Source of the DNA: Rhizophagus irregularis
Taxonomy: Eukaryota > Glomeromycota > Glomeromycetes > Glomerales > Glomeraceae
Length of the DNA stretch: 64,000 bases
Direction of reading: 5' to 3'
Assembly (NCBI RefSeq): GCF_026210795.1
Contig: NC_089449.1
Span: 1 to 64,000, forward strand
The notes below the pieces were generated by a model, which had not been told where the DNA came from, searched no databases, and saw only the letters and a list, made by a program, of their open reading frames with translations. The stretch's first letter is position 1, and the number at the start of each line of letters is the position of its first letter. Below are positions 14,490-52,179 of the stretch, one piece after another. A program made the translations under genes and the position numbers.

Positions 14490-14539
14490 AGCCGTTTATG
14501 ACTAAATAATATAATTATATTATTTAGTCATAAACGGCT
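14490..14539. repeat. 50-nt perfect palindrome at the left tip
   Basis: Begins AGCCGTTTATGACTAAATAA, centres on AATATAATTATATT and ends with the exact reverse complement. The right tip (52135-52174) keeps 40 nt of the palindrome, but its inner arm has changed (GCTTTATG instead of CGTTTATG). A terminal palindrome can fold into a hairpin, so it may serve in end replication or integrase recognition. Confidence 0.9.
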
Positions 14540-14559
14540 TAACTTAGGTTATTTAGTAA

Positions 14560-14720
14560 TAAAATAATCTAACTATAACTAAATAATCTAAGTATGACTA
14601 TAAATAATCTAAATATAACTAAATAATCTAAGTATGACTATAAATAATCTAAATATAACTAAATAATTTAAATATATCTAAATAATCTAAAGTTAATAAC
14701 CTAAATATGATTAAATACTC
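14560..14720. repeat. Short AT-rich tandem subrepeats in left TIR
   Basis: Repeated AACTAAATAATCTAA and TATGACTATAAATAATC units, with a ~43-bp block occurring twice (14590-14680), immediately inside the terminal palindrome. The mirror set is at 51950-52105. Such subterminal repeats commonly bind a transposase or replication protein; that role is inferred. Confidence 0.7.
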
Positions 14721-15599
14721 TAACTAAATAACCTGTTTGTGACAATTTTGTATACCTAGTTATTTTTCTTACTATATTCCTTCCCTTTGAATCCGCTTTT
14801 CTTTAGCTTTTTCCCATTTATTATTTGTGATCATGTGATTAAATAACCTAAATATTACTGTTACTAAATAATCGAAATGTACCTATTTTTGTTTGGTTCT
14901 CTGCGCCAATAATCATTTTCTAATATAATTTATGTTATTGGGGTTCTATGGTTGATTGGTTATTAAATTCTATGTTGGAGGTCCAGCCTGTCTGCAATTA
15001 TTTGGATTCTAAGTTTTATGATGAAGTTTTTGCCATTCTGCGCCTCTTTGGTTGCCTGTTAAGGATTCGAGGGTGCTTTTCTTTTTTACTTATTTTGTTA
15101 TTTATCAAAATGCTGAAATATGGTAAAAAAATATCATGTTAGGTGGTGCAGTAGATCTGCGATTAATTTTGGCCGGCACTATACCATAATTTTGGCCGAT
15201 CTTTTGGGCATGTGATTCGAGGATCCAGCTTAGTACCATGATGGTGACTTGATAGTGTCCTGGAACTTCTGTGAAGCTGTCGTGGAACTAGTGAGGAACC
15301 ATCGTAGGAAGTGTTATGGAATGTCAGCTTGGATGCCGACCTTTATACCCAAAGTTCTGACTGAAATTGTGAAATAATGCTGGCCGGTACTACGCCAGAC
15401 ACGTGATACTGTTCCATCACCAGAACAGCCATTCATAGTTACGGGCTAGTAACGGGAACATTTCTGGAACATTTCTGGAATCCAATATATATGCATTTGT
15501 ATCACATATTTTTGTATCCATATATTTCTGAAATCTTACCTAGCTCCAGTCTGGCGGATGGTTGGTTAGTAAAGAATTGGAGGTGCAATATGTAAACAT

Positions 15600-16016
15600 A
15601 TTTTTGAGATGGATTTCGTTCTAAAAATTCCGTCCTGGTTATCCAAGTTATTGGGTCAACTAGGACGGGAATAATCAGGACGGGTTTTGATATGGGAGAA
15701 AAGCTTCTTTCTTTGATCTAACTTGTTCTTATATACTATGTCCTAGTTGTCATAGTTGTCCTAGTAAAAAGTAAAGTTCTTGGAAAAACCGATTTTTTAT
15801 ATCTTATGCATGCTATGTATGTATGTCATGTATGCATGCTATATATACCTATATGTAAAAAAATAAAAAAGTCTGGGATCTTGCATTTTTTCTAGAACAA
15901 CTATGACAACTAGGACGGGTATTCAAATTCCCTTTAGTTCGATTCGACAATGCCATTTAGCTATAATTTTCCGTCCTGGTTTCCGTCCTAACTCGTCCCA
16001 GTAAACTTGGACGGAT
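15600..16016. repeat. Inverted GTCCTAG/GGACGG repeats in left TIR
   Basis: Several copies of a CCGTCCTGG/AACTAGGACGG motif occur in both orientations. A 25-bp palindromic unit GTCCTAGTTGTCATAGTTGT... (15740-15764) faces its near inverse at 15892-15916 across a centre rich in GCATGC and GTATGTAT steps. The same set is mirrored in the right TIR (about 50650-51050). It may be an origin or protein-binding cluster, or a nested MITE; the sequence does not decide. Confidence 0.55.
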
Positions 16017-16047
16017 TTTTCTAGTGAATCCCAAAGAGATCGTATCA

Positions 16048-16359
16048 CTAGTGACAAGTCGTATTATTTTTGTTTATATCTAAATTACCTACCAGTATCT
16101 CTGTCGAAGCCAACTTAGCCTGCTTTTTCTGATGATAATGTTCTCTTGATCTATGTTTTTTTGCATGCGTATCGCAATAGTCATATTTGGATCTTGTATT
16201 CTCTTTACACCCGGGTTCTTTGCAAAGAACTTGCCTAGAATTCTGATGGACTTTACATCCCTTTGGATCATAGCATCTCCAATTGCACACTTCTCCAGTC
16301 CTAAGAATATATGGACAATAATAAAAATTCCAAGGTGTCAGCTTTTTTCCGCCTCCCAT
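16048..16359 (-). CDS. Small Cys/His-rich zinc-binding protein, left TIR copy
   Basis: A 103-residue protein starting at an ATG (MGGGKKLTPWNFYY). Cysteines and histidines are arranged in pairs: C15, then C24-x3-C28, C34-x2-H37, C45, C50, C61-x2-H64, followed by a basic HxKKHRSREHYHQKK stretch. Two treble-clef-like zinc sites followed by a basic tail suggest nucleic-acid binding. It is divergent from the primase-helicase, with about 105 bp between starts. An almost identical copy is in the right TIR (50310-50621; R for W at 27 and I for V at 90). A shorter relative is at 27784-28047. The exact function is unknown. Confidence 0.75.
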   Translation of the reverse strand: MGGGKKLTPWNFYYCPYILRTGEVCNWRCYDPKGCKVHQNSRQVLCKEPGCKENTRSKYDYCDTHAKKHRSREHYHQKKQAKLASTEILVGNLDINKNNTTCH

Positions 16360-16465
16360 TTGTATATATCAATTAATAATGTTGGGGAATTATTTTCATT
16401 TTAAACTTTTTTCTTGCGAATAATATACCTTGAGATTTGGTATAACTATAAATCTTTCGAAAAAA
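16360..16465 (+). promoter_or_regulatory. Shared bidirectional promoter region in left TIR
   Basis: The 106 bp between the zinc gene (minus) and the primase start (plus) contain a T-tract with a CTTGCGAATAATATACC core (16406-16427) and a TATAACTATAAATC stretch (16441-16454) just ahead of the ATG at 16466. The same T-tract plus CG(C/A)AT-like core recurs upstream of other genes in the element. The right TIR carries the identical region ahead of the polymerase, so both replication genes should have the same control. Confidence 0.6.
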
Positions 16466-19400
16466 ATGGCCGAACAATCCTCACTTTCAGAGTTCATCGA
16501 CGCCCCCGCCGCCCCATACTATTGTGGGTTTAAAGCCTCCGATGTAGGTCAATACCGATATAAAATTCGTGATGATAGTGTTCAGCCAAGAAATTTCCTT
16601 GGCGCAGATAACGAGGACGAAATAGAGGCCATACTCGCAGAACGTGAAGGTCATTCCTTACACGAAATCATCGATGGTAATGAACCACTCCGCCCATTAT
16701 AGATTTTGACTTACTAGTAGAAGCATTAAATGCTATTACCCCCAAGCTTTCAAGCGGTCAGGCAAAAAATTTACTTTGTCGCGCCTTTAGAGATACTTGC
16801 CTAGAAATATTCCCAGAATGGAATAAAGAAACTATGTCTATTGCCGAAAGTAGTGATGAGAAAAAAATATCTCTACATGTCTTAACTTTCGGCATGAGAC
16901 TTCCAAATATCGCTAAGGTTTCAGCTTTCACCGAACTTGTTCGCAAGAAACTTCCAGTAGGATTACAGAAAAAAGGGATAATTGATAATATAGCAAATAT
17001 AGGTTCTTTCAAATCTTTCTCCTTACGGATGCTTGGAACGCCCAAATATGATAAAAAAACAGACAAACATATTCGTATAAAAAAAGTTATTCGTCCAAAA
17101 GATGGATCTATCTTTGACTTTATGATTCGTCCACCCAATGATGATTCTAGAGTCATTGACAGTCCTCTTTTGGTTGTTCTAGAGTCAGAAGTTAACAGAT
17201 GTTCGAAGGAAAATAATGATACAAGTAGCGAAACTACCCAGGCTGATTTCGATTTTGTGGAATCGTTACTTGGGGGAAACGGTATCGAAGGGTATACTCT
17301 CTCATTCCCCTCAGATAACATTCCAGACTTGTTTCCATTAACTCGCAACTCCCCATCACACTGCCCAATATGTGATCGGGAACATGAAAGTGATAACGGA
17401 TATATCTTACGAAATAAAAAAATATATAGATTTTATTGTCATCGTGCAAACCACGAAAGAGAACCTGGAACTAGAAATCCCTCAATAAAGCTTACCATTA
17501 GTGAAACTGCTTTGCAACGGGAACAAAAGCTTCCGAGTCCTATAAAACAAGACCGAAGCAGAATTTCAAACCCAAAAGACCATTTCGTATGGTGGGATTT
17601 AATACGTATGTGTACTTCGGGTAAGAAATTCTCCCGCGCTGAAGTTTATGAAGCAATCCAATCAACTGTTGCTTATATTCAAAAGAAAATACCAATCTGG
17701 ATATTAAAACATAAGGATCCAGAAAATGGGCTTTACTTCGATATGGGAGCTGAGCTAAAGCTTGCCAAGTTTGAGATTAAAATAATCGAATATGGGGGTG
17801 AATCGGTAAAGTTAAAATCATTAATAGACCAGGCAGTTATTAAAGGTCTAATCGTTTACGAAGATTATGACTTCCTCCCATATCCCATAAGCGTTCCTCA
17901 ACCAGATTCAGATTTCTTTAACCTTTTCCTAGGATTTTTAGCTAAGCCAGGGACAAAGGTTAATAAAGAAATTATGGATCCGATTCTCTGGCATGTAAAG
18001 AATATAATTTGCAATGGGGATGAAAAACTCAATGAATATATCTGGAACTGGTGGGCATATTTGGTTCAGAAGCCAGAAAAGAAGCCTCGAACAATCTTAG
18101 TACTAAAATCCACTTTACAACAGTGCGGAAAAAATATTATCACTGATTTTATTGGTGATAAAGTTCTAGGAGAGCATCTTCATTATGCAGGATCGGATTT
18201 GGAAAAAATGCTTGGGCGCTTCAATAGCGTCATCCAAGCTCGAAAACTTATTGTTATGAATGAGACTGGGATGTCTAGTGGAGAATGGCATAGATTTAAT
18301 GGGCATCTTAAATCTCTTATAACAGAAGGGAAGGTATCCATAGAACGCAAAGGTCTTGAAACTAAGAGATTAAAAGATTTTGCCGGATATATGGTTACAA
18401 GCAATCAGGACGCCCCACTCAAAATAGATATAGGAGATTCCCGTGTAGTTTGTTTTAATGTCTCTACACGCTGTAGAGGAAATACAAAGTATTTCAAAAG
18501 ACTAGGAAATATACTTGACCATTCTGATGCGCCTGGCGTAGTTATGAAATATCTTCTTAGTCTAGATATCTCAGATTTTGATCCACAAGAAATTCCTGCA
18601 ACTAAAATGAAAGTAGATATAATGCGCGACCAGCTTCCTAATCCCATTCGATTTTTAATTGATCATATTACATCTTGGGTTGAGGATAAAGTAGCCAACC
18701 CAAGTCGTACATCATTGTATCAGAATTATCTTGAATGGTGTGGAGAAAACGGTGAAAAGATATTCCCTAACAACATTTTCAGTAAGAAGTTATTAGAGAA
18801 AAATATTATTGAATGCAAGAGAGCAAGTAGTGGAATAAGAGAATGGCAATATATTCTCGACCGCTCCAAGATCGTAGCCAAGCTCCGTGAATCTGGCCTA
18901 GGTGATATGGAAGAATTTTCCGATATACCTCAAGACGACTTGCCCGAAAATGAGACTACAGACATACCCATATTCAATGTGCCAGAAACGGTCCTAGAGG
19001 GACCAACCATTCCACAGAAAATAATCCCACCTCAGCCAGAGCGCCATAACAGAGTAGCCGATAGAAAGAATAAGCCTTCACCTAATACCAGTAAAGATAA
19101 GAAGGCCAGTAATCAGGATGATTCGACTCAGGCACTTTTCGACTATATGGCAGAAGATACACGTGCTCCGGTCGCCCCAACATCTGGTACATCCGAGACT
19201 TCTAAAAGACCTGAACCAGTAATCGATGAACCAGAGACTTGTAAGTCACCCAAGTCTATTAAATCTAGTAACGAAGTATCATCTACCATACTTCTGGCTA
19301 GACAAGAGCGAGAAGAGTGCCTCAGGAAATGGGCTATCGATCATGGCGAAGATCCAGACGTATTCGTGACCATCACAGAAAAAGATATCAGACTATCTCA

Positions 19401-19629
19401 TGAATATAGGGACAGAATGATGTCGGACGCAGATGCCATCGATTTCGCGAAAGAAGACGGTATGAATGTAAACGATATATTTTATATGTCTAGGAGAGAA
19501 AGGCTAATAAGTGAAGAAATATATCTCCGCAACTTCGAGAATGCAGGTAAGCTCCGGACATATGTTTATGACGATGAGGAGTGGCAAAAGGGTATTAGCA
19601 TACTTCAAAAGAACGGTCACCTATGGTAG
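16466..19629 (+). CDS. Primase-SF3 helicase (D5-like), broken by a one-base shift near 16690
   Basis: A two-part replication enzyme. The start ([10 protein letters not shown], 16466) lies in the TIR. That frame stops at 16702, and the main frame runs from 16684 to 19629, so one base appears missing around 16690-16700, directly before an IIDFD motif that resembles the DxD metal-binding motif of archaeo-eukaryotic primases. Further on are KKISLHVLTFG (primase-like His motif), a zinc site CPICDREH...FYCHRANH (~residues 175-205 counted from 16834), and an SF3/D5-type helicase with Walker A STLQQCGKN (~425), Walker B KLIVMNET (~470) and a motif C-like MVTSNQD (~518). The C-terminal ~230 residues are acidic and low-complexity. 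Such proteins prime and unwind DNA at viral forks. Alternatives to a mutation are programmed frameshifting or an assembly error. Confidence 0.8.
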
Positions 19630-20025
19630 GTTTGATATCGACAAGAAATGACAAAAAATATAAGCATACTCAGCGCAAGCGCGGAGAATGGTATGCTTTG
19701 GTAAAGAGCGAATAAGAGTGGGTTATGAAATATTAGTAGGGATGGGACTTTCGTTCTTTACAATTAGGCGATATAAAATCCCAAATTATTATTATTTTTT
19801 TCGCATATCCTATCTACCCGCAATTTTCAAATATATATATAAAAGATATTCTGGCCGGAGCTTGTGACCTCATAGAGAGCCCGCAATAAGTTATAATATT
19901 CTTTTTGCCCAGCGACCATGGATGTCAGAATAATTATTTATTTTTTCGAATTGAACTTTCTCCGCATAGTATATACCAAACAACCTAGGTATAACCAAAT
20001 ATCCTACATATTACCAAATAATAAC
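19630..20025 (+). promoter_or_regulatory. Intergenic region with two promoter-like cores
   Basis: There is no gene here. A hairpin-like CTCAGCGCAAGCGCGGAG lies at 19669-19686, 40 bp after the primase stop. T7-CGCATATCC is at 19795-19810, and T6-CGAA...CTCCGCATAGTATATACC is at 19941-19976. The second closely parallels the TIR promoter (CGAATAATATACC then GGTATAAC). Because of it I place the next gene's start at the ATG at 20026 and not at the upstream in-frame ATG at 19918. Confidence 0.5.
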
Positions 20026-21168
20026 ATGGCTGGCATCGCTACTAGATATGTAACAGAAAACGAGCTCAATAACGAGATGAGTATCGAAGAGCTCAGTCGA
20101 CACACACTGACGTTAGACATCCTTTTGACGGATAAAACTAAGAGGGATCAGGCACGACGTCGTTTCAAGAAAGGATACAACTTTAGCGAAAAACAGGTAT
20201 TTGCATTAATTCCTAAGCAGACGGCTGGTCAGAAAAAAGAAGGAGCCGTTTCCAATACTCCTGATACCACTCAGGAAATAGAACCAGAAGAGGGGACAGT
20301 GAATGTGTGTCAAATTTCACCGAAAGAGACTATTAGAGATTTGGCCGAACGTATTATCTGAGATAATATTAGCGAAAAAGAGGTAGAAGTTATAGCCAAG
20401 GCCTTATCTGGAACGGCCTCTAATGCCAGCGCTGGCCTATCACGCCTCACTAGACTTCGAAGAGAACTGAAAGCCCTCGGAGCCTCAAAAAAAATTATCT
20501 CGGCTACATTTATTCCAGACATAACTTGTTCGGCTAATAAAATTCAAAAGGAGAATAGATTGTTACGTGAGAATGAAGGGATCTATTATCCAGACCACTT
20601 CTCATTAGAATCGGTTAAGGAAAGACTGGATTCATATGTTGTGTCAAATATACCCGATAAACAAGCCCTAGCCGATGTAATGATAATGCTTTGTATTCGC
20701 CCTGGCGAAATTAAAGACTTGCACATATTCAATGGAAATGTAACTGGGTATGGGAAAAATCGAGATCAACAAGACATTTCTCGAGTATTTAGATCACTAG
20801 AGAAGAATGAGGAACGGGCGAAGCAATTGCTTATATGGATTCAGAAAGCAATTTCTTCCGGACAGTTACGAGACCCAGGAAAGCCAGGCGTATTATGGTT
20901 CAATACATTCCTAAAAAAAGATGAATTTCTCCCTGAAATAGGTAAACCGCTACTCCCTAGTTCTTTGCGCAAATTAGGGGCGGTATTTGCAGTTGTATCG
21001 CATGGTTCAAAGAATTTATCAGAGGCTATGACTATCGCTAGTGAAGCACTTCGCCACAGTGCAGACAACCATGCTCCCCCTGCAAAAAACTATACTATAG
21101 TCAATTACAGGCCCCGTGGGGTACCTTATGATCAGGCAAAAGCATTCGAGTTCTTTGACGAAAACTAA
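20026..21168 (+). pseudogene. Tyrosine-recombinase-like protein with an in-frame TGA
   Basis: The frame is open from the ATG at 20026 (MAGIATRYVTENELNN) to 21168 except for one TGA at 20359-20361; about 380 codons in total. The downstream part has features of a tyrosine recombinase catalytic domain: LCIRPGEIKDL resembles box I with its arginine, SSLRKLGAVF supplies a second arginine, and EALRHSADNHAPPAKNYTI followed by VNYR resembles the His...Tyr end. The usual H of the HxxR box is not clear. Related proteins are frequent in Rhizophagus, to my recollection. The stop could be CGA changed to TGA by one C-to-T transition, or be read through. It might be a second integration/excision enzyme or a Crypton-like passenger. 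The family call is moderate. Confidence 0.5.
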
Positions 21169-21845: not shown

Positions 21846-22211
21846 ATGTATACAGTTAATTTGCTAGAACAACTTCCGCCTGAACTAATACCATCCATTT
21901 CAAAGTACCTCCCAGAACGGAATCTAAAAAATGCCCGCAATATAAATAATATATGGGAAAGAGAGGTTAATCTTGAATGGTCCAAAAGAATGAATTTTTT
22001 ATTTGGGAGAATAGTTCAAGGCAATTATACAGTAAAGGAATATTATTCGAAACTGAAAGAGTGTAATTTAAGCAAAGACTATCCAGAATGGCTTCTTAAA
22101 AATCTATTCTTCAGAGAATTATCACCTGAAGATATATTAAAAGTTCGTTTGGATGGGTTACAAGCACTTGCGTTAGATGACATAGTGGAAAGGCTTAGTC
22201 CGGAGCAGTAA
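21846..22211 (+). CDS. F-box-like small protein
   Basis: A 121-residue protein. The N-terminal ~40 residues (LLEQLPPELIPSISKYLPER then NLKNARNINNIW) fit an F-box: LP-x-E-L-I start, hydrophobic pattern and a terminal W. F-boxes bind Skp1 and link substrates to SCF ubiquitin ligase. The rest is helical without known repeats. The start at 21846 follows a T-tract/GATCGAAAG core and TATATAA at -11. The next gene also begins with an F-box, so the two may be related or cooperate. Confidence 0.55.
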   Translation: MYTVNLLEQLPPELIPSISKYLPERNLKNARNINNIWEREVNLEWSKRMNFLFGRIVQGNYTVKEYYSKLKECNLSKDYPEWLLKNLFFRELSPEDILKVRLDGLQALALDDIVERLSPEQ

Positions 22212-22257
22212 TTGTGTAATTTTATTTTTTCGTTTAAAGATACAGCATATATTATTT

Positions 22258-23577
22258 ATGGTCCATACAAGCATTTTTAATATATAGGAATTACTAGAGC
22301 AGATTTTACATTTCTTATTGATAGATAAATCTCTATACTCTGCTCTATTTGTTTGCCGGTCATGGTACAGATGTGCCGTTCCTAGCTTATGGAAATATAT
22401 CAAACTAAAGGGGAATGACCTGAAATGTTACCATTATTTTCCAGATGATTATACTTATCAAGAGAGAGACCGTACTCGTTTGGAAAGATTTGTAAAAATA
22501 ATGTGCGAAAAGCATAAGCCAGCTTATGTCTCGAATGTAACCCATCTAGAAATTACTTATTACCATTCGCTTTCGGATAGAAAAATAAAAAATATTGTGG
22601 ATACATTTCCGAATATAATTCATTTAAATTTCAAAGAAAGTATAGGTTTTGGTAATAGATCACTATTTATAATAGCGGAATCATATCTTAATTTAAGATA
22701 TCTCAATTTGTGGGATGCTGAAGCGATAACCGATAAAGGCTTATGTGCGATCGTACGATCATGCCGTAACTTAGAACATCTAAATATTTCTTACTGCAGG
22801 AATATTACCAATGAATCTTTGTTTGTAATTGCAGATAATTGTCATGATTTACAAGAGTTCCATTTTGCCGAAGCACGTCGGATCACAGATAAATCTATAT
22901 GTTGCATCTTAAACTCATGCCCAAATTTACGTAAATTTGATATTGCATATAGCAAGGGGAAAATCAAAAATGCTAGTACTTTAATGCAGAGATGTCTCAA
23001 TATAGAGTATCTTGACTTTGCTGGTGTTATGGCTTTCTATGATGATGCATTAATTGTAGCTATCATTAGAGCATCTCCGAATTTAAGACACTTAGAGATT
23101 GGTGGTAATGATATTGGTGATGAGGTTACTGAGGCGCTAGCCCATACTTGTCAAAAATTAGAATATCTCGATTTAAGTAGTTGTACATTTATTAGTGAAT
23201 TATCAATCTGCAATGTTATTCGCTCCTGCCCGAAGATTCAGCATCTCAGCCTTGAATGTTGCAATATTACCAGTACCACTATCAAAGAAATTGCTCGTTC
23301 ACGTCCCAATTTAAAATTTCTTGATTTGGAGGGGTGTAGAAATATCAGCAAAGAAGCCATGGACCAGCTAAATCCAAATATTCATATCGAAAATTTTGAT
23401 GAAGATTACTGTTCTGATTCGGAATCTTCTAGCTCCGAAACTGAATCAGAGGATGAAGTTGCCTATAATAATGATGTACCTCCTCCGATAATTACGGGCA
23501 CGGCAGAAACTCCGAATGATTTTATTACTGCATTTAATGATTATCTTAGACAGGTTGGTGGTACTCTGCCGATCTAA
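22258..23577 (+). pseudogene. F-box/leucine-rich-repeat protein with an early in-frame TAG
   Basis: From ATG 22258 the frame is open to 23577 except for TAG at 22285-22287 (codon 10). Just after that stop comes an F-box ([18 protein letters not shown], then [17 protein letters not shown]), followed by about ten AMN1-type Cys-containing leucine-rich repeats (for example [37 protein letters not shown]) to ~residue 370 and an acidic Ser/Glu tail. F-box/LRR proteins recruit ubiquitylation targets. Translation from the ATG would give nine residues. One base change (for example CAG to TAG), readthrough or an internal start could explain it. A T6-CG core and TATATT lie just before the ATG. Confidence 0.75.
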
Positions 23578-24285: not shown

Positions 24286-24950
24286 GATTGCTATAATAAA
24301 GTAATATATTTAATGCGGAAAATTTAGCGAAGCGCCTTAAGGGCCAAGTCCGGAATACTGATCATCAACCCGGATCACTTCGTTCGAAAGAAGATTTTGC
24401 TAAGCCATAGATTTCTATGCAATGATGTAATGGCCGATCACACGGTCAGTCTGTGAAACATTATTTTTTTTTGCATATATATTCGAAAAAGAAAACATAC
24501 TAACCAGTACCTATATTTTTTCCCCAAACAAATGTGAGAAAATGTAAGGGAGGTCTAGTTGCCTACCGTAAAAGTAAATACTGACGGCAAAAGCATATGT
24601 TATGAAAGGCTGAGGACTTTGGAATTTCGAGATCGCCAGGCGTAAAACCAACTATGTCTTTCCGGTAGATCTACATGTGAAAAGGTAAGAGGATTCCGTT
24701 TACATGTGCTTTCATAGAGCTCTTGGCATCATACGACAATGCTAATCACTATTCTTATCTCCTTAACTTCGGCTTGGCGCTCTTTTTTCCCAGCAAGATA
24801 TAAAGCATGTAGAGGTATGTGGAAGTTCAGCCAACTTTCCGCAAAAAACTTTCCCGTAAAATAACGCAAAATAAGGTATGTATATGCTAGAAGTTATGTA
24901 TGTATGGGAGCGAGTTTTCTCACTATGGACCTTGTATTTAGGAAAGCAAG
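24286..24950. other. Intergenic region, no gene recognised
   Basis: About 660 bp. It contains the minus-strand promoter-like core for the upstream gene, a T9-GCATATATATTCG core at 24463-24483 facing right, and mixed sequence with short frames only. The next gene starts at 24951, which leaves room for a long leader or an intron; I see no convincing splice pair. Confidence 0.4.
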
Positions 24951-40400: not shown

Positions 40401-40430
40401 TCTGATTCTCTTTTATAATCACAAAAAAGA

Positions 40431-42518: not shown

Positions 42519-42907
42519 GTGAACTATTAAGAGGGAAAGGTAGTGTAGCCCCTAGCGATGATTATAATTATGATCCTGTGGATGATATTACTGACAGTAT
42601 GGCTGGCATGACACTAAATAGTGCCACAATAAATGCTATCAAATCCGCCGTTAAAAGTGCCATTAAGAAATGTTCTAAGTGCGGTAGATTTGGACACACT
42701 TCTCGTAAGTGCTCTGTAAAGAAGAAAAAGAAAAGTAAGAAGTCTAAAAAGGGTAAGGTTAATCTCGCTATAGAACCAGATTCAGATTCAGATTCTTCTT
42801 CCAATACCTCATCTAACGATAGTTCTGATTCTGATTCAAGTTCAGATGATTCTTCCGATTCTGGAGGCGATATTACTGTTAATATTGCCAAGACAAAAAA
42901 AAAGTGA
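42512..42907 (+). CDS. CCHC zinc-knuckle (nucleocapsid-like) segment, -1 to Gag
   Basis: This frame is open from 42512, overlapping the Gag stop (42516-42518), to a TGA at 42905-42907. It has no early ATG (first at ~42599), so expression as a -1 extension of Gag at the GAT TTT TAA site is likely if the sequence is right. KCSKCGRFGHTSRKC is a perfect CX2CX4HX4C zinc knuckle, followed by a Lys-rich stretch and an acidic Ser/Asp run (SDSDSSSNTSSNDSS). Such knuckles bind the packaged nucleic acid. The frame ends in A9-G-TGA, a possible slippery site into the protease frame. Confidence 0.75.
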   Translation, partial: FLSELLRGKGSVAPSDDYNYDPVDDITDSMAGMTLNSATINAIKSAVKSAIKKCSKCGRFGHTSRKCSVKKKKKSKKSKKGKVNLAIEPDSDSDSSSNTSSNDSSDSDSSSDDSSDSGGDITVNIAKTKKK

Positions 42908-43713
42908 AGAAGGGGAGTGAATCCGAGAAATTATCCTCTAAAGAGATGTCTAGTGCCAAGCTGAGAAAAATACCACTAGAGGAGACTATTCGTAAAGTCC
43001 TTCATAGTGAGCTTAAACTAATCTTCCCCTCACATTTTTTTCAAGATTCTGGTCTCATTGCGTCCAAACAGATAGTGGCTTCTACGGAGGCAAAGATAGT
43101 ATCCCAAAATGATGTATCATCATCTTCAAAAGATTCGGATGAGTCCAGTCTGGAAGAGGAGTCTTTAGATGATCCTATGGAGATTGACTTCGTCAAGAAG
43201 AAGGAGCCGAAAACCAGTGTTGCCACTATAAAGTGCAAAATCAGGCGCTTGAAGATTCCAGCCATGACTCTAGACTCCGGAGCTGAGCCTCCAATTATAA
43301 CGAAAAACATTGTTGATCGTACTAAGGACAAAATAGATAAATCTGAAAAACATGACCTTAGCGGTGTAGCTACTGTCCCGATTGAATCTATTGGTATTGT
43401 CTGCAATCTGCCCATTACTCTAGCTCCTGGGTGCATCATTTATGAAGATTTTGTAGTTGTGGATTATCACAAGCCAACGCTAATATTTTCTAATCAACTC
43501 CTAAAGAAATATGGATGCGCAGTGGATTGGGCTACTAACGAGCTAAAGATCCCTCTTAATGGAAAGGATTATATTATCCCAGTGACTATGCATAAGATCA
43601 AGAATAAGCTCGAGGTGAATTGTGTGAGGACTACTCCCGAATGTGATGATCTGCCAGCTCCAGACAAGATTTCACAGGACTTGGATGCAGATGTGACATT
43701 AAAAAAAAAGTGA
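42904..43713 (+). CDS. Retropepsin-like aspartic protease, -1 to the zinc knuckle
   Basis: Open from the A9 run at 42895-42903 to TGA 43711-43713. A GTG at 42904 is in frame, but no ATG is near, so a -1 shift at A AAA AAG is the natural way in. After an acidic linker, IPAMTLDSGAEPPIITKNIV holds the D-S-G-A catalytic triad of retroviral-type proteases (Asp near residue 124). FVVVDYHKPTLIFSNQLLKK and CAVDWATNELKI fit the C-terminal strand-helix part. Retropepsins act as dimers and cut Gag polyproteins. It would process the Gag-like protein upstream, replacing the Ulp1-type cysteine protease of standard Polintons. Confidence 0.75.
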   Translation: MKKGSESEKLSSKEMSSAKLRKIPLEETIRKVLHSELKLIFPSHFFQDSGLIASKQIVASTEAKIVSQNDVSSSSKDSDESSLEEESLDDPMEIDFVKKKEPKTSVATIKCKIRRLKIPAMTLDSGAEPPIITKNIVDRTKDKIDKSEKHDLSGVATVPIESIGIVCNLPITLAPGCIIYEDFVVVDYHKPTLIFSNQLLKKYGCAVDWATNELKIPLNGKDYIIPVTMHKIKNKLEVNCVRTTPECDDLPAPDKISQDLDADVTLKKK

Positions 43714-43838
43714 GTTATGAGGAGCTTGAAAGAATGTTATATAACACTCTTAAGTCTAAAGAAAATCTCAATGAATCATGTGAGGAGTTGTTATTACGTT
43801 ATAATGAACTAAATGAAAAATATCTTTTACGTGGCTAG
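43710..43838 (+). CDS. Coiled-coil extension, -1 to the protease
   Basis: The protease frame also ends in A9-G-TGA (43701-43713). Shifting -1 there opens 42 more codons, beginning VSYEELERMLYNTLKSKENL and ending at TAG 43836-43838, with coiled-coil character. I recall similar wording continuing the protease in related Rhizophagus proteins, which supports real coding. It overlaps the 3' end of the HTH gene on the other strand by 12 bp. Confidence 0.5.
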   Translation: MSYEELERMLYNTLKSKENLNESCEELLLRYNELNEKYLLRG

Positions 43839-44282
43839 TATCCTATTCATTTCTTCTGTGATTTTTTCGCCTCTCTTATCTTCTTTCTCACAAAATGCTT
43901 TTAATTCCTCATTGCTTATATTTAAACTTTTTGAGCTTATTGAAGCTAGTGGTGTCTGAATAACAGGTAATTCAGAGATACGAACGGATTTAGACTTAGT
44001 TTTTTTTCCTCTAAACTTTTTTACCTTACTTCCAGAAATAACATTACATTCCACAGGGTCTGCTTGCTGAGGCGAACCAGGTTCTTCCGAAAATCGATTT
44101 ATGTCTTTAGGATCTATTTGTGGATGGGCTCCTCTCCATATTTGATATACCCGTCGTGATGATATTTTGTACTTGTTAGCCATGGCTTCCGATGCTCGCT
44201 TCATTGAATTTTTAGCTTTAATAATATCCTGAATATCTTCAGCTGATAGGGGGGTCGCATCTGAACGTAGATACCGAAGCAT
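43827..44282 (-). CDS. Helix-turn-helix DNA-binding protein
   Basis: 151 residues from ATG 44282. Residues ~14-52 (SAEDIQDIIKAKNSMKRASE..MANKYKISSRRVYQIWRG) form a recombinase/homeodomain-like helix-turn-helix, with KISSRRVYQIW as recognition helix. A basic KKFRGKKTKSKS segment follows and a helical tail ends the protein. It is divergent from the membrane-protein gene; the 237 bp between them contain repeated TCGATAT and TTTTCGGTAGATTC motifs that could be its binding sites. It may be a regulator or a transposition accessory factor. Confidence 0.6.
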   Translation of the reverse strand: MLRYLRSDATPLSAEDIQDIIKAKNSMKRASEAMANKYKISSRRVYQIWRGAHPQIDPKDINRFSEEPGSPQQADPVECNVISGSKVKKFRGKKTKSKSVRISELPVIQTPLASISSKSLNISNEELKAFCEKEDKRGEKITEEMNRILAT

Positions 44283-44519
44283 TTTTACAGATAGATATAA
44301 AAAAATCTTTCGAAAAATTATCGGTGTATTTTCGATATAATTTCGATATTCAATCGATTTTTGTTCGATATTATCGATTTATTTTCGGTAGATTCGGTAC
44401 ATTCGATCCATCCGATATATTCAGTATATTCAGTACTATCAATATATTTTCGGTAGATTCAGTCCAGAAATTTTTAGACACATTTTTTATATTAGCAACT
44501 AAGCCGAAAAAAAAAGGCT
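44283..44519. promoter_or_regulatory. Divergent control region with TCGATAT and TTTTCGGTAGATTC repeats
   Basis: TTTCGATAT/TCGATTTTTGTTCGATATT steps occur from 44325 to 44385, and TATTTTCGGTAGATTC occurs twice (44387 and 44449), separated by ATTCGATCC/ATTCAGTA steps. The density of one short motif family between a divergent HTH gene and its neighbour suggests operator-like sites. No gene lies here. Confidence 0.45.
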
Positions 44520-45572
44520 ATGACCAATGTATATACCTTGAAAAATATCAATAATAAAGATAATGATTCCTTTAAGGGGGTCGGACAACGACTTGGTGGT
44601 ACATATGAGCAAGAGTTTAAAGAAAAATTATATTCCACTATTAAATCTAAAGCCGAAATTAATGATCTCAGCGAAAAGCTGGTAGATAAGTACAATGAGC
44701 GAGAAAAGGAGTTTGAAAATAAAGCTAGCCAGTTAATTGCATCCACTACTAAAGTTAGATCCCAACTTATTTCTGAACGAAAGTCTCATACTGAGAGTCA
44801 ACGTGAGCTTGAAGCCAAATATACTGCCGAAATCCAATCGCTCAAATCTAAGATTAAAACACTGAAAAGAGAGGGGACTTTAGCCCAGAAAGCTTCATCC
44901 GCCGACAAGACCAAGATTCTTTCTCTTGAAACTAAAGTACGTGAATTGGAAGGTAAGTTGGATGACTTGGAACTAGAACAGGTGCTCCATGATTCGAATG
45001 CAGTGGGAGGACTTCTAGAGGAGCCGGCCCAAACTGATCCCAAAGAAATCGATTCTCTCAGGCTTGAATTAGAACAAATAAAGGAGGACCTTAATTCAAA
45101 AGAATATGAAATAGAATGTATGGAAAAAGGGAAAGAGTCATCAGATAGTATGTACAAACGGGAAATAGATATTCTGTCTTCGGGGCGATTAAAGTTAATA
45201 GATGAAAATAGATCCCTCAGGGACCAGTTAGCGTCAAAGAAAAATAATGAAGTAGATACTCCACCCCTGCCTATGAATGATTCATCGCAACTTGATCCTG
45301 AAGGGACCCTTTCCACTTTTAATCCTTCGTCCCAAATAATTTCTGTAGGTGGTGCAGAAGCAGTATCTTTACCGGTGACTGCTCCTATCATTGCGAGTTC
45401 CTCGATGTCGCCTATGTTAATATATTCTATACTTACCCTAGTACTTATTACAATTATATGCTTCATGGTCAGGAAATGGTGGAATTCACGGAAAAAAAGT
45501 AACCAATTTTTCACCTACGAAAATTATATAAATAGAGAACATAGACCGGATTTTTATTATCTCAAATCCTAA
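44520..45572 (+). CDS. Coiled-coil protein with C-terminal membrane anchor
   Basis: 350 residues from ATG 44520. Residues ~25-255 are almost continuous coiled coil (EKLVDKYNEREKEFENKASQ, EIQSLKSKIKTLKREG...). A Pro/Ser linker follows, then one hydrophobic segment at ~297-317 (MLIYSILTLVLITIICFMV) with a basic R-K-W-W stop-transfer and a 30-residue tail. There is no signal peptide, so it is a tail-proximal membrane protein. In an element with packaging and Gag genes this could be a particle or membrane-fusion/attachment component, but no homology was recognised. Its first codons align with SYEELE/KYNE-type coils of the protease extension. Confidence 0.65.
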   Translation: MTNVYTLKNINNKDNDSFKGVGQRLGGTYEQEFKEKLYSTIKSKAEINDLSEKLVDKYNEREKEFENKASQLIASTTKVRSQLISERKSHTESQRELEAKYTAEIQSLKSKIKTLKREGTLAQKASSADKTKILSLETKVRELEGKLDDLELEQVLHDSNAVGGLLEEPAQTDPKEIDSLRLELEQIKEDLNSKEYEIECMEKGKESSDSMYKREIDILSSGRLKLIDENRSLRDQLASKKNNEVDTPPLPMNDSSQLDPEGTLSTFNPSSQIISVGGAEAVSLPVTAPIIASSSMSPMLIYSILTLVLITIICFMVRKWWNSRKKSNQFFTYENYINREHRPDFYYLKS

Positions 45573-45576
45573 TCGA

Positions 45577-45915
45577 TTACCGTATAAGTACTGGAGCTAG
45601 TGGAACTTCTTCGAATCTTTTTTCGATATGAGACAATATCGTTTCTGCTAAATCTTTGGGCGGATTAATTAAGATCTTTTCAGCATCGGCTACCGTACAT
45701 CCTAATAACCATCCAATATGAATCCGGTCACCTCCCTTACCATTATGCCCATGGTGTTGTAAAAATCGATAGTCTTCCATTACAATATCCGTCATTTTCT
45801 CCTGATCAGCTATTATTTTACAAAATTCCTGTCTATCCTCTTCTGTGATTGGGAAATGGATTTTGTTGGGTTCGAAGCCTATGTACTGGAAAACTTGGTC
45901 ACGTAATTCGGCCAT
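45577..45915 (-). CDS. Small protein of unknown function
   Basis: About 112 residues from ATG 45915 (MAELRDQVFQYIGFEPNKIH); the longer frame upstream has only a TTG start. The middle contains MEDYRFLQHHGHNGKGGDRIHIGWLLGC, a His/Gly-rich loop that might bind metal or phosphate. Its stop lies only 4 bp from the stop of the membrane-protein gene on the other strand. No family recognised. Confidence 0.6.
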   Translation of the reverse strand: MAELRDQVFQYIGFEPNKIHFPITEEDRQEFCKIIADQEKMTDIVMEDYRFLQHHGHNGKGGDRIHIGWLLGCTVADAEKILINPPKDLAETILSHIEKRFEEVPLAPVLIR

Positions 45916-46205
45916 TATACCAATAAAGCTTATCTTTAAAATATGTGGATTTTTCGGCTGATCGTATCTCAAGGATACGGTTTTGCCAAATTAAAATACT
46001 AATGATCATCTCTGGGCATATCCGAGGCTGGGCTATATGATCGGAGGGATGGATCTCTCATGTTCAGGGTCGGAAGATCGATTATAGGAATTGATGTTAG
46101 CCAGTATTATTGCACGAGAAAAAATATGCGGTCATAAATAATGTTGCAAGTATTCTAGCAGAGGTGTGGCAATTTCAGCTAAGAATACTTGACAATATAA
46201 CTTAT
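45916..46205. other. Intergenic region, nothing recognised
   Basis: About 290 bp between two minus-strand genes. It contains mixed sequence with GATCATC and GATCGGAGG-like steps but no frame, and no clear T-tract core on the minus strand. Confidence 0.4.
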
Positions 46206-46832
46206 CTAAGTGCTTTCGGTCACATCCTCAAGATGGAAATACCATAAATTACTAATCTCATCTAGTGCCCCAATTTCTGATATATGAGGTAAGGTAGGTA
46301 GGTCAGCAATTATCTCATTTTTTCGCATGGATGAAACTGGGCCGATTTCTTCTGGAATTGATACATGCTCTTTATAACGCATATGATAGACCAATTTGTG
46401 AAAGAATAAATTATACTCTTCAATACATTTTGCAAGCTCGCTAGGATATCGAGCAAAATCAGAGCATATTTTTTCCCTCATTTCGTCATCTACTGAGAGG
46501 TTTTTATCTTTTGAAATTTTCCTAGCGCATTTCATAAATGTCTCCCATAATACCTCGATAGGGTTGCTTGCCATGAAAATCTCATAGCTAAGCCATTTAC
46601 CATGAAATATTTCATATGAACTACCTATCTTTTGATACAACATTTCTTGTGCTTCTATGACAGCGTTTCTATAGGCGCGTTTATAAGCATTTCCACGGGA
46701 TACCATCATCTTGGAAGTAATACCATTAACTATGATATTCTCCTTCACAAAACCCTCAAGCCATGATTTGGCTTTCTTTTGAGCATGGTCATCTATTTGC
46801 TTATATTTCTCATCCGGATCCTTAATTTGCAT
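46206..46832 (-). CDS. 208-residue protein translationally coupled to the polymerase gene
   Basis: The ATG at 46832 overlaps the polymerase stop as TAATG (one shared base). The protein is helix-rich (KKAKSWLEGFVKENIIVNG, RGNAYKRAYRNAVIEAQEML), has no Cys pairs or membrane segment and belongs to no family I know. There is no room for its own promoter unless it lies inside the polymerase gene. In eukaryotes TAATG overlaps are rare and allow termination-reinitiation, as in some viruses and non-LTR retrotransposons. A replication accessory role is suggested by position only. Confidence 0.65.
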   Translation of the reverse strand: MQIKDPDEKYKQIDDHAQKKAKSWLEGFVKENIIVNGITSKMMVSRGNAYKRAYRNAVIEAQEMLYQKIGSSYEIFHGKWLSYEIFMASNPIEVLWETFMKCARKISKDKNLSVDDEMREKICSDFARYPSELAKCIEEYNLFFHKLVYHMRYKEHVSIPEEIGPVSSMRKNEIIADLPTLPHISEIGALDEISNLWYFHLEDVTEST

Positions 46833-49800
46833 TATTTTATCTGAGGGGGTCGCTCATGTCTTTTATCATACATGATAAATCGGGCACAGAGACCAATGAT
46901 AGTTTTTTCGTAATAATGATATAAATCTAACTCCTTACCCAATTCCTTAGCTACGTCCACAAATTCCATTTTCTCGCCTTTAGTTGGTTCTAACTTTCTA
47001 CCATGTAAATCAAAAGTCGTATCTGGATGAGTTACTACGTAACTAAAGCGCCCACCTGGTACCGGAATCTTAGTATCATATTTTCCTTTCATTCGTCCTA
47101 TAAAACGCTGAACAGCTTTGTTATCTTTATCGGGTTTCCAAGCGTCAGTCTCTATAAATTGTTCAAAATTCCACTGCTCATGATTAATTATAGCATCCCT
47201 GAGAACGTCTTCAACAATCTCATGGAGTGATTGGACGTTATTAATATCCATAGCCCTTCGCATAATACGATCCCCTATAGTTTTGAAAACTTGGGATTTA
47301 CCCTGCTTCACAGTATCTATTCCCCTTATAAAAGGCTCTCTTGGTTCGAAGTTAGGAGTCTCTTCATGGTCAATGCCAAAATATTTTTTCTTTCCGGTAA
47401 ACGCTACTGGAAATAGTACTTCCTCGTAGGCCATTTTAAGATAATCTGACCTAGTCTTGAGCCTGAGGAAAGTATTCACATCATTGCGCAATTTTTCCAT
47501 TACACCCATAGTAGTCTTGACCATCTCGGTCCAATACTCTAGTTTAAAGATTTCTCCCTTCCCATCATTATAAGCCAGATCGTATTTCTCATAGCAGGAA
47601 TCTGGACAAATGAGATATAAGGAATCGGTATCACCGTATTTTATCCTAAAGCCTTTCTTTCTAACGTACTCTGCAACACGTTTGATAATTTCTTGCCCAG
47701 CCGAAGTAACACCTCCAGCAAGTTCGAGTATGTAGAATGGGGAGCCACTTCTGCCCGTCACACCATAGAATGAATTCATATACAATTTAATGGCTTTCTG
47801 CTTAGAATTTAAAGAATCATAGGCAAAGCAGACAGAACTGTATTCTTTTATAAAATTATCATATGATAAATCAATAAAAGGATCTAAGATTTTAACCATC
47901 TCAGTACGCTTCTTCACATTCTTCGTCGAGGACAAAACATCTTTGATTGCATCCGCTATTGAGATAGATCCGCTGGCATGATCCCTTTGGGATCCATCCA
48001 TTCTACTTTTGACCTTTCCCATATATTCCTTTTTCTTTCCAATAGGCTTTAGCTGGGCTTTTATTTCATTTCGCATTCTCCCCAATCTCTCCAATATCTT
48101 TGGGAAAAGACCTTTCTGATCAGGCTTATTCCCATGCCGTATAGTCCAGGCTCGTATAGGATTACCATTATACTTGAACTCGATATTGTGAAGTACTTTA
48201 TTCTCTCTTTCTAACTCATCTGCTTCCGAAAGTGTTGAGACCATCTTCTCGGGTGAGAGGTTGTAAGTCATAATTATGCTAGGATACAAGGATCTAAAGT
48301 CTAAACCAGTGACAGGACGTTTATTTTTGAGACCCTTTACTGGCGGGAAAACATATGCTCCCGGAAACTTCCCAGATGCTTTCTGATCGGAAGTTTTCAT
48401 GCTAAATAGTATGTCCTGGGTCCATGCTTCCGCACCCAAGAGGTTGGATACTTTTGTCCCTATGGCATAATAATGTGTATCAAATAGAGTTATATATGCT
48501 ATCGAAGCAACTTCTCTATAATCATTTATTATATTATGCCTGACCGCGAGCTCCTGACAACGTAAGGCGTCTATGGTACAGTAATTAGCTATTTCGTGCA
48601 TATTTTCAGTGGAAGAGTCTGAAATCCTACCCCTCGCTTCTGAATAGTACTTCCATAATTTGCTCATAGGTAAATCGGCTTTGCTGTCGAGACCACAATC
48701 TTCTAAGAAGTATTTGAGTGATCTTCTCTCTGAACGGGGGAAAAGTTGCAACAAACTCGCGCAAACGTCAATTGGTACGCATCCGGGAAGCTTAAGAAAA
48801 GATGATTCAAAGCTCAAATTATTGGTACCAAATTTGATGTTAATAGATTCACGACCTTCTGTTCTTCTGAAGTTCCTGTCCGTTTTCTTCGCCCATTGGT
48901 CCCTATAAAAGAAACCACTGCTTAATGGCTTTCCAGTTCCACCGAAATAATTCCAAATGAGAATGGATTGAATATTGGCTGTCTTACGCGGATTTGCTGA
49001 CATTTGTTGGACCATCCAGTCAAGAACCTTTAATTTTGTAGCCTTCTCCACTATAAATGGCCAATCATATCCAGAATCGTTAAAGCCAAGCTGGATGTCT
49101 GGGGCAAAAGATTTCCAACATAGAGCAAATGCCTTTAAGAGATTGGTCTGATTCCCGCATATGATGGTCATGCAACGTGGATCTGGTGCCGTCTCAAGAT
49201 CAACGAGACGTATTTGTTCTAGTGGTTTTGGGTCATCTTTCCAGTGAACTGTCATACAGATCATAAAAACTTGAGCTGTATCATTTTCTGCTTGTGGGAC
49301 ATTACCTAACCCACGCGAATCGTATGTTTCTATGTCCCATGTTAGAACTAATGCTCGGTCACGAGAAAAGAGAGAAGATGGATAAATTTTATAAAGTGAT
49401 CCAAAATCAACTATGGGTTGGAAATTACCAATGTGAACATAAAATGCATGCGGACAATATTGGGATTTCGCATAATAAGGTGCACTGAAATTATATTTGT
49501 AGTCGCTTATTAACCCCCATCCAGAAAGTGGTATTCTATACTCTCTTGCGACTTTACGGTAATATGTGCCCGTATCATCTGAAGCGGTTTCTATCCTATT
49601 TTCTTGATCGACCTTCGAATTATAGTTTGAAATAATATCGAGAGCAGTGAACCTTATATCTTTATTAGGTGCAATGATGCGAAGATAAGACTTTTTTTCC
49701 GCATGGTAGCCACGAATAGGATATGCCTTTATGCACTCCCTTCGGATCAGATTCATGTTTACTCTATTCTCCTGGCTGTCTTTTTCAGTAGCGAGTAAGT

Positions 49801-50203
49801 GCTTTATTTTGGACCAGAATTTAGGAATACTTGCATTTTCAGAAACGCGAATATCGAAAAATACCTTGATACCAGTAATGGTGACGACTGCCTTCTGGCC
49901 ATTAACGAGATGTCCATAGATTCGAAGAACATAATGGGGGATTTTATTAACATTCTCTTTGGCTTCTTCTATGTCGTATGACACGAATGGAATATCTCGA
50001 TGATTCGCTATCTCAACTTTGAGAGTTGAAGTTGACCCCTCATCATTTCTCATAGCTAATTTATTACGGGTTGAGAAACCCGCCAAGTAATTCTCACCGC
50101 CATATCTGATTACCTGACCCAATGATGTTTTTTCTTTTTCAGCCTCTGGGTGAAAAAGGGCGGGGGCGTCGATGAACTCTGAAAGTGAGGATTGTTCGGC
50201 CAT
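46832..50203 (-). CDS. Family B DNA polymerase (Pol delta/large-DNA-virus type)
   Basis: 1,123 residues from ATG 50203 ([15 protein letters not shown]); an upstream TTG in frame lies in the promoter and is not chosen. The proofreading exonuclease has Exo [10 protein letters not shown] (~287), Exo [14 protein letters not shown] (~372) and Exo [12 protein letters not shown] (~541). The polymerase has motif [21 protein letters not shown] (~630), motif [13 protein letters not shown] (~803), motif C YGDTDSLY (~854) and KKKYFGI (~936). DFRSLYPSI and the [11 protein letters not shown] insert follow cellular/viral RNA- or DNA-primed enzymes; the TPR1/TPR2 layout of protein-primed polymerases is not apparent. 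The frame is intact. The first ~15 codons come from the TIR and equal those of the primase. It should replicate the element. Confidence 0.93.
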
Positions 50204-50309
50204 TTTTTTCGAAAGATTTATAGTTATACCAAATCTCAAGGTATATTATTCGCAAGAAAAAAGTTTAAAATGAAAATAATTCCCCAACATTATTAATTGA
50301 TATATACAA
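50204..50309 (-). promoter_or_regulatory. Shared bidirectional promoter region in right TIR
   Basis: Mirror of 16360-16465. It serves the polymerase on the minus strand and the zinc protein on the plus strand. The T-tract with TTGCGAATAATATACC and the TATAACTATAAATC stretch precede ATG 50203 exactly as they precede the primase ATG. Confidence 0.6.
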
Positions 50310-50621
50310 ATGGGAGGCGGAAAAAAGCTGACACCTTGGAATTTTTATTATTGTCCATATATTCTTAGGACTGGAGAAGTGTGCAATCGGAGATGCTATG
50401 ATCCAAAGGGATGTAAAGTCCATCAGAATTCTAGGCAAGTTCTTTGCAAAGAACCCGGGTGTAAAGAGAATACAAGATCCAAATATGACTATTGCGATAC
50501 GCATGCAAAAAAACATAGATCAAGGGAACATTATCATCAGAAAAAGCAGGCTAAGTTGGCTTCGACAGAGATACTGATAGGTAATTTAGATATAAACAAA
50601 AATAATACGACTTGTCACTAG
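50310..50621 (+). CDS. Small Cys/His-rich zinc-binding protein, right TIR copy
   Basis: 103 residues, identical to the left-TIR copy except R for W at residue 27 (CNRRC) and I for V at 90. It has the same zinc-ligand pattern and basic HAKKHRSREHYHQKK segment. Being in both TIRs, it has two copies per element, each sharing a divergent promoter with a replication gene. A regulator or TIR-binding role is plausible but unproven. Confidence 0.75.
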   Translation: MGGGKKLTPWNFYYCPYILRTGEVCNRRCYDPKGCKVHQNSRQVLCKEPGCKENTRSKYDYCDTHAKKHRSREHYHQKKQAKLASTEILIGNLDINKNNTTCH

Positions 50622-52134
50622 TGACACGATCTCTTTGGGATTCACTAGAAAAATCCGTCCAAGTTTACTGGGACGAGTTAGGACGGAAACCAGGACGGAA
50701 AATTATAGCTAAATGGCATTGTCGAATCGAACTAAAGGGAATTTGAATACCCGTCCTAGTTGTCATAGTTGTCCTAGAAAAAATGCAAGATCCCAGACTT
50801 TTTTATTTTTTTACATATAGGTATATATAGCATGCATACATAACATACATACATAGCATGCATAAGATATAAAAAATCGGTTTTTCCAAGAACTTTACTT
50901 TTTACTAGGACAACTATGACAACTAGGACATAGTATATAAGAACAAGTTAGATCAAAGAAAGAAGCTTTTCTCCCATATCAAAACCCGTCCTAGTTCCCA
51001 TCCTAGTTGACCCAATAACTTAGACAACTAGGACGGAATTTTTAGAACGAAATCCATCTCAAAAATATGTTTACATATTGCACCTCCAATTCTTTACTAA
51101 CCAACCATCTGCCAGACTGGAGCTAGGAAGATTTCAGAAATATATGGATACAAAAATATGTGATACAAATGCATATATATTGGATTCCAGAAATGTTCCA
51201 GAAATGTTCCCGTTACTAGCCCGTAACTATGAATGGCTGTTCTGGTGATGGAACAGTATCACGTGTCTGGCGCAGTACCGGCCAGCATTATTTCACAATT
51301 TCAGTCAGAACTTTGGGTATAAGAAGTCGGCATCCAAGCTGACATTCCATAACACTTCCATGATGGTTCCTCACTAGTTCCATGACAGCTTCACAGAAGT
51401 TCCAGGACACTATCAAGTCACCATCATGGTACTAAGCTGGATCCTCGAATCACATGCCCAAAAGATCGGCCAAAATTATGGTATAGTGCCGGCCAAAATT
51501 AATCGCAGATCTACTGCACCACCTAACATGATATTTTTTTACCATATTTCAGCATTTTGATAAATAACAAAATAAGTAAAAAAGAAAAGCACCCTCGAAT
51601 CCTTAACAGGCAACCAAAGAGGCGCAGAATGGCAAAAACTTCATCATAAAACTTAGAATCCAAATAATTGCAGACAGGCTGGACCTCCAACATAGAATTT
51701 AATAACCAATCAACCATAGAACCCCAATAACATAAATTATATTAGAAAATGATTATTGGCGCAGAGAACCAAACAAAAATAGGTACATTTCGATTATTTA
51801 GTAACAGTAATATTTAGGTTATTTAATCACATGATCACAAATAATAAATGGGAAAAAGCTAAAGAAAAGCGGATTCAAAGGGAAGGAATATAGTAAGAAA
51901 AATAACTAGGTATACAAAATTGTCACAAACAGGTTATTTAGTTAGAGTATTTAATCATATTTAGGTTATTAACTTTAGATTATTTAGATATATTTAAATT
52001 ATTTAGTTATATTTAGATTATTTATAGTCATACTTAGATTATTTAGTTATATTTAGATTATTTATAGTCATACTTAGATTATTTAGTTATAGTTAGATTA
52101 TTTTATTACTAAATAACCTAGTCTAAGTTGTTGC

Positions 52135-52174
52135 TTTATGACTAAATAATATAATTATATTATTTAGTCATAAA
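52135..52174. repeat. 40-nt palindrome at the right tip
   Basis: TTTATGACTAAATAATATAA followed by its exact reverse complement. The outer CGGCT (52175-52179) is no longer matched on the inner arm (TTGC), unlike the perfect 50-nt palindrome at the left tip. The tip ends at 52179, next to ATATC. Confidence 0.9.
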
Positions 52175-52179
52175 CGGCT

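Follow-up and report, generated by a model that had tools for sequence, protein, structure and literature searches.

Can a DNA transposon that copies itself with virus-type enzymes build its particle from retroelement genes? The question is raised by a 37.7-kb element at positions 14490–52179 of the window, by which we mean the first 64 kb of contig C21 (NC_089449.1) of Rhizophagus irregularis, in a genome searched here as 146.7 Mb on 32 contigs. The original prediction, made from the letters alone, was of a Polinton-like element whose particle module had given way to a Gag-type one. We consider it likely, at about two chances in three, that the element belongs to a set of self-synthesizing DNA transposons of arbuscular mycorrhizal fungi, perhaps DNA viruses that have integrated, whose particle module is a Gag-protease (Gag-Pro) cassette. 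It is a unit bounded by terminal inverted repeats (TIRs) and flanked by a target duplication, coding for a polymerase, a D5-type helicase, an rve integrase and an A32 ATPase, and the cassette is kept across four families. In the joining of DNA-element replication and integration genes to a Gag-Pro cassette, as an architecture, we have high confidence.

Two gene sets in one element

The genes that carry this reading are the following.

16424–19629, plus strand: D5-type primase-helicase (DUF5906/Pox_D5), two overlapping open reading frames (ORFs) in different frames, N-terminus within the TIR
37987–38739, minus strand: A32-type packaging ATPase
38797–40269, minus strand: rve (DDE) integrase
40419–42518, plus strand: Gag, with N-terminal coiled coil and capsid domain (CA, about 41400–42515), by predicted fold
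42485–42907, plus strand: CCHC zinc knuckle, the end of Gag, in one frame with CA in the C23 copy
42883–43713, plus strand: retropepsin-type protease (D-S-G-A), by profile comparisons
42893–42907, plus strand: candidate −1 frameshift site ACAAAAAAAAAGTGA, by ORF overlap and genome motif search
46832–50245, minus strand: family B DNA polymerase, asfarvirus-like, RNA-primed type

All four predicted enzymes of replication, packaging and integration were recovered in a Pfam search of 30 window ORFs (DNA_pol_B, PF00136, 2.1e-43; DUF5906, 1.9e-18; rve, 7.5e-9; Pox_A32, 7.1e-11), with Pox_D5 (7.4e-4, narrowly below the cut-off) beside DUF5906 in the primase-helicase; the P-loop GKT and the FED motif of A32 are kept in all four aligned sequences. 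The polymerase matches PDB record 8ywg (E 1.5e-204), described there only as 'DNA polymerase', which we take to be that of African swine fever virus. The predicted Polinton affinity holds for the integrase, the ATPase and the TIRs and fails for the polymerase, which is of the RNA-primed, asfarvirus-like PF00136 type and not the protein-primed PolB (PF03175) of Polintons. Among the same Pfam matches there was no reverse transcriptase family, no asfarviral capsid, virion or transcription gene, and no Ulp1/adenain-type cysteine protease, a retropepsin being present instead. IMG/VR yielded no confirmed relatives for the Gag alignment, the polymerase or the A32 alignment.

The predicted Gag-like capsid, CCHC knuckle and D-S-G-A protease give weak Pfam matches, below the cut-off (Retrotrans_gag 0.0038, zf-CCHC 0.0019, Asp_protease 0.015), and their identification comes from the predicted fold of Gag and from protease profiles. 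A structure search with the predicted CA model matches Gag CA folds, including those of Arc and PEG10; the CA sequence found nothing significant in PDB. The protease profile reaches the DDI1 retropepsins in PDB (2.7e-5) and aligns with a long terminal repeat (LTR) element protease of the same genome at an hhalign probability of 88.9. The window Gag matches proteins of R. irregularis DAOM 197198 at 98–99%. On Retrotrans_gag, two Ty3/gypsy-type Gags from this genome score 5.2e-13 and 1.3e-11, and on Ty3_capsid 4.1e-10 and 2.8e-8; the Gags of the DNA elements look divergent because their Retrotrans_gag scores are far poorer (0.0038 in the window, 0.082 in clade 3, none in clade 2). Read by eye, the protease active-site motif is D-S-G-A in the window, D-T-G-S in clade 3, D-T-C-A in a clade-2 copy (L021:2174–2938) and D-S-A-S in a fourth family (L036:3110–3808).

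At ACAAAAAAAAAGTRA, the gag and protease ORFs share an overlap with a −1 offset in the window, in C23, another copy of the window's clade 1, and in C1 (clade 2); in C14, also of clade 1, they do not overlap. Genome-wide there are 181 occurrences of the motif and 87 of its reversed control. In a register test on contigs C1–C13, with 100 listed motif sites, it stands in register at 18 of the 76 protease matches: 6/19 at identities of at least 49%, 12/31 below 30% (clade-2-like) and 0/26 at 30–48%, a group in which both copies read (clade 3) have gag and protease in one ORF. This pattern would be expected of a slippery site in use. The window has Gag and the CCHC knuckle in different frames, and C23 has them in one; their overlap in the window was considered as a frameshift signal and rejected as a broken frame of this copy. 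With this break and a stop within its recombinase-like gene, the window copy is, on the reading of its frames, not intact.

Probable replacement rather than insertion

Searches of the genome, whose counts are lower bounds, gave at least 154 A32, at least 140 protease, at least 67 polB, at least 111 Gag-CA and at least 91 rve matches. A protease match lies within 12 kb of 73 of the 145 A32 matches used, 71 of them divergent, against a chance mean of 3.2, and the gap between the two is 4.1–5.2 kb in 23 of 26 pairs with an A32 identity of at least 46% and 2.4–2.5 kb in 40 of 47 pairs at 40–45%. Likewise, gag or protease is found within 12 kb of 26/32 polB, 66/79 rve and 92/145 A32 loci (2.6% for a random point); 37 of 169 gag/protease loci are without a polB, rve or A32 neighbour.

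Three further clade-1 copies, C23, C12 and C14 (36, 38 and 47 kb, TIRs of 1.8–2.0 kb), keep the order of the window: A32, rve, gag, protease, helix-turn-helix (HTH)-like protein, coiled-coil protein, 137-aa protein, polymerase. In all four, gag and protease are thus flanked by rve and by the polymerase side. On the left side the recombinase-like gene and several others are matched in all three copies and the primase only in C12; the CCHC stretch is matched in C23 and C12 and not in C14, whose polymerase is broken by an insertion.

Clade 2 is represented by C1:1430408–1445482, a unit of 15,075 bp with TIRs of 0.54 kb at 95%, carrying DUF5906, DNA_pol_B_2 (PF03175, 3.7e-6), A32, gag, protease (PF13650, 5.8e-8) and an rve integrase with a chromodomain; its Gag has no CCHC by eye and no Pfam match. 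A 196-aa ORF beside the integrase (L021:3822–4409) contains a short, four-cysteine, zinc-ribbon-like stretch.

The clade-3 copy C29:2998311–3010416 is 12.1 kb long, with TIRs of about 450 bp at 99.3%, and holds a polymerase frame with one stop, rve, a 1075-aa Gag-CCHC-protease ORF, an F-box protein (assigned from a Pfam match on the C3 copy) and three small ORFs; a second copy is split by nested insertions. No A32 or primase was seen among clade-3 ORFs of at least 110 aa. The polymerase piece is unrecognised by Pfam, PHROGs and PDB, matches no phage record and gives no significant BLASTP alignment with the clade-2 polymerase; it is identified because many relatives at about 50% identity carry PF03175, among them ones at 46–50% in a sea slug, a land snail and a sea anemone, and from motifs read by eye. 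A 267-aa protein of this clade (L035:2446–3246) has two similar beta-rich halves, TBP-like by eye, and no significant Pfam match.

A fourth family, partly read (C9:48001–58000), has Gag, CCHC (by eye), a protease-like ORF, the HTH-like and coiled-coil proteins, A32 and rve. Its Gag (L036:361–2378) is a mosaic, with a coiled coil 72–82% identical to that of clade 1 and a CA at 29%, which suggests domain exchange between families.

The two outcomes that the original prediction had named as contrary to it, a separate insertion of the cassette and a jelly-roll capsid gene, did not come up: the cassette holds the same position in four clade-1 copies and recurs in three further families, and there is no capsid family among the Pfam matches of the 30 window ORFs. 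Collinear copies, four families and the lack of a capsid match support the reading that the particle module has been replaced by a Gag-type one.

Ends of the element

14485–14489, no strand: left target site duplication ATATC, from the sequence
14490–16510, no strand: left TIR, from arm comparison and reading of the ends
14490–14539, no strand: left terminal palindrome, perfect over 50 bp, from end comparison
50159–52179, no strand: right TIR, from arm comparison and reading of the ends
52135–52179, no strand: right terminal palindrome, perfect over 52135–52174 (40 bp)
52180–52184, no strand: right target site duplication ATATC, from the sequence

The predicted 2.02-kb TIRs and ATATC duplication are both there. 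The arms 14533–16510 and 50159–52132 are 96–99% complementary in four in-register blocks over nearly 2 kb, and, when the ends are read directly, reach out as far as 14490 and 52179. Interior G+C is 0.34–0.40, against 0.20–0.33 outside (2-kb windows, the telomere window excepted). The contig opens with a (TAACCC)168 telomere array at 1–1016, which places the element about 13.5 kb from the chromosome end. The target duplication is 5 bp in three of four clade-1 copies, and the flanks of the fourth, C14, show none; clade 3 has 6-bp TCGCTG at the C3 copy and, by eye from the flanks with the boundary moved one base, TAATAT at C29.

Perfect end palindromes are a feature of clade 1: 50 bp at the left end in the window, 44 and 50 in C23, 50 and 52 in C12, and 48 at the right end of C14, whose left one is imperfect. 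The centre TATAATTATA is common to C14 and the other clade-1 ends, though the C14 arms differ. Clade-2 ends contain no palindrome of 24 bp or more.

Because the TIRs extend into coding sequence (16424–16702, 50100–50245), the polymerase and primase ORFs open with the same residues, about 15 in number. A PIP-box-like leader in this shared stretch was dropped as a candidate, being altered in C12 and missing from C14 and C23. Both TIRs also contain a small Cys/His-rich ORF (16048–16368, 50301–50621), similar to one inside the element (27784–28047).

Other genes of the window copy

19897–21168, plus strand: tyrosine-recombinase-like protein, interrupted by a stop, tentatively so named from weak matches
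21846–23577, plus strand: F-box and LRR ORFs, by Pfam
43827–44378, minus strand: conserved protein, HTH-like by eye, matched in C12, C14, C23 and the fourth family (phrog_836, 0.0036)
44496–45572, plus strand: conserved coiled-coil protein with a C-terminal hydrophobic segment, kept in other copies and the fourth family
45577–45990, minus strand: conserved 137-aa protein, matched in C12, C14 and C23

The recombinase-like gene is two ORFs, 19897–20361 and 20362–21168, parted by an in-frame stop; its closest database relative (P0044) is a single 380-aa protein. It belongs to a large glomeromycotan family (457 relatives, some named integrase), and in an alignment of 35 rows Lys297 and Tyr356 are kept in all 35, His344 in 33, Arg315 in 29 and Arg225 in 28. 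No recombinase family was found in Pfam (the window ORF and 10 relatives) or PHROGs. With a predicted model that is poor in the catalytic half, the first 18 Foldseek chains are Cre/Tre, at E 0.043–0.56 and none below 1e-3, and VIA listed no recombinase. Palindromes and this gene together give a lead towards a hairpin-telomere system in clade 1. In asfarviruses, for their part, the terminal repeats are inverted and end in hairpins. Genes for rve and for a tyrosine recombinase are reported together, in passages of PMC12220804, for 11 polinton-like viruses of cryptophytes.

The F-box and LRR ORFs are probably host-derived. Another cargo gene, at 24942–25403, encodes a Crinkler-type N-terminal domain (PF20147, 9.9e-13), 98.7% identical in C23 and without a match in C12 or C14.

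Alternative readings

Whether Gag packages the DNA of the element is, in our estimate, an even call. The alternative that survives best, unlikely yet deserving of weight, is that DNA transposons keep Gag-Pro for another job, in an RNA-protein or replication compartment or in Arc-like nucleus or hypha transfer, with their DNA unpackaged. CA folds have been re-used in the biology of Arc and PEG10, both among the fold matches found here; the CCHC knuckle in clades 1 and 3 and, by eye, in the fourth family fits such a role, as does the lack of a visible A32 in clade 3. Against it, the clade-2 Gag has no visible CCHC and no Pfam match, A32 adjoins Gag-protease in three families, and Gag and protease stay paired, a candidate frameshift site recurring at their junction, which speaks for particles that are assembled and matured.

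It is improbable that the element is a Polinton with a divergent, undetected jelly-roll capsid and an accessory Gag-Pro. Several clade-1 ORFs are unassigned and unfolded (for instance 35891–37120 and 28769–29866) and leave room for one, but in the compact elements none of the unassigned ORFs is large enough for a major capsid protein within the range covered, that of unspliced ORFs of at least 110 aa: the largest is 203 aa in the 15-kb element, apart from a 386-aa ORF continuing the primase, and 267 aa in the 12-kb element. A search of the genome with PF04451 (capsid of nucleocytoplasmic large DNA viruses) gave 0 matches, but so did its control, and it has no bearing on the question. A published tBLASTn and HMM search of five R. 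irregularis genomes, as given in passages of PMC10640383, found no major capsid protein (MCP). With one unassigned protein folded, the case for the absence of a jelly-roll capsid is strong but not absolute.

Very improbable is a third reading, that these are dispersed remains of integrated Asfarviridae-like viruses. The polymerase is asfarvirus-like, and passages of PMC10640383 so interpret the 15–33 polB copies per genome; yet the four polB copies read here sit in TIR-bounded units of 36–47 kb with rve and a common, non-asfarviral gene order, three of the four with target duplications. That an LTR retrotransposon happened to land inside a Polinton-like element, conceivable in a genome with Ty3/gypsy-type Gag genes (two read), is refuted by the collinear clade-1 copies and the recurrence of the cassette in other families, with no reverse transcriptase match in the 30 window ORFs and no LTR seen around the cassette.

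Relation to known systems and proposed mechanism

Functionally, the element resembles a Polinton whose particle module has been swapped. With Polintons/Mavericks it shares TIRs, which begin with AG in both, the rve integrase, the A32 ATPase and a self-encoded family B polymerase, and clade 3 adds a PF03175-related polymerase and 6-bp duplications; it differs in that a Gag capsid and a retropepsin stand where Polintons have jelly-roll capsids and a Ulp1-type protease, and the window element departs from them further by its PF00136 polymerase, D5-type helicase and 5-bp duplication. The strict Polinton definition fails because of the polymerase type, and that of a retroelement because there is no reverse transcriptase. 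The predicted Gag CA fold, CCHC, retropepsin, rve and −1 frameshift-type junction are those of Ty3/gypsy LTR retrotransposons and retroviruses; unlike them, the element has a DNA polymerase and TIRs, with no reverse transcriptase found and no LTRs. The closest parallel to DNA within a Gag-type capsid is the Caulimoviridae (pararetroviruses), whose DNA is made by reverse transcription, for which no enzyme was found in the window element. Polymerase B is shared with Asfarviridae and with the asfarvirus-like endogenous elements of Rhizophagus described in passages of PMC10640383; unlike Asfarviridae, this is a 37.7-kb transposable unit with an integrase and without an asfarviral capsid or transcription gene among its Pfam matches.

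In the mechanism we propose, the polymerase would copy an extrachromosomal DNA form, and Gag would be made in bulk, with a lower level of Gag-Pro from −1 frameshifting at the A-run. Gag would assemble a CA lattice that the protease matures, the A32 ATPase, where present, would help to load or move the DNA, and the rve integrase would insert it via its ends. In clade 1 the terminal palindromes of about 50 bp and the tyrosine-recombinase-like gene may solve end replication by hairpin telomeres. More tentatively, at somewhat less than even odds, the elements may be a hitherto unrecognised line of DNA viruses, or of virus-like transposons, in fungi, with Gag-type capsids around polymerase-replicated DNA, formed without reverse transcription; Gag-Pro would have been captured once and have spread over at least four backbones with different polymerases, clade 1 having hairpin-telomere ends.

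Implications

Zhao et al. (2023; PMC10640383) report, in the passages available, 15–33 PolB copies per R. irregularis genome outside a 1.5-Mb viral region, in positions that vary among strains and of possible Asfarviridae origin, with MCP, A32 and D5 undetected. Here 26 of 32 polB loci have gag or protease nearby, and four were read in TIR-bounded elements with A32; we infer that these are the same copies. The elements thus offer a possible reading of two published puzzles, the scattered, strain-variable, asfarvirus-like polB genes of Rhizophagus and the lack of a major capsid gene found in its genomes (both from passages of PMC10640383). Mavericks of R. irregularis are described as recently expanded and variably methylated in passages of PMC8647823 and PMC11075540 that do not mention a capsid; the expanded elements, many copies of which are poorly methylated according to PMC8647823, may partly be those described here.

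Among the papers listed by full-text searches, with subscription papers and preprints outside their scope, no title or abstract opening reports Gag in Polintons, and of those papers that hold both words, the ones looked into (PMC6431247, PMC8547959, PMC4046053, PMC12220804, PMC10175614 and PMC10328495) speak of Gag with regard to retrotransposons, in a figure key or as chance letters, one of them being without a main-text mention. Within that range we found no published description of DNA transposons that pair a virus-type polymerase with retrovirus-like capsid and protease genes. Capsid type is a main axis dividing the virus realms, with jelly-roll capsids in the line of polintons, adenoviruses and giant viruses, and Gag in retroelements. 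DNA elements that join the replication and integration genes of one group to the particle genes of the other cross that divide.

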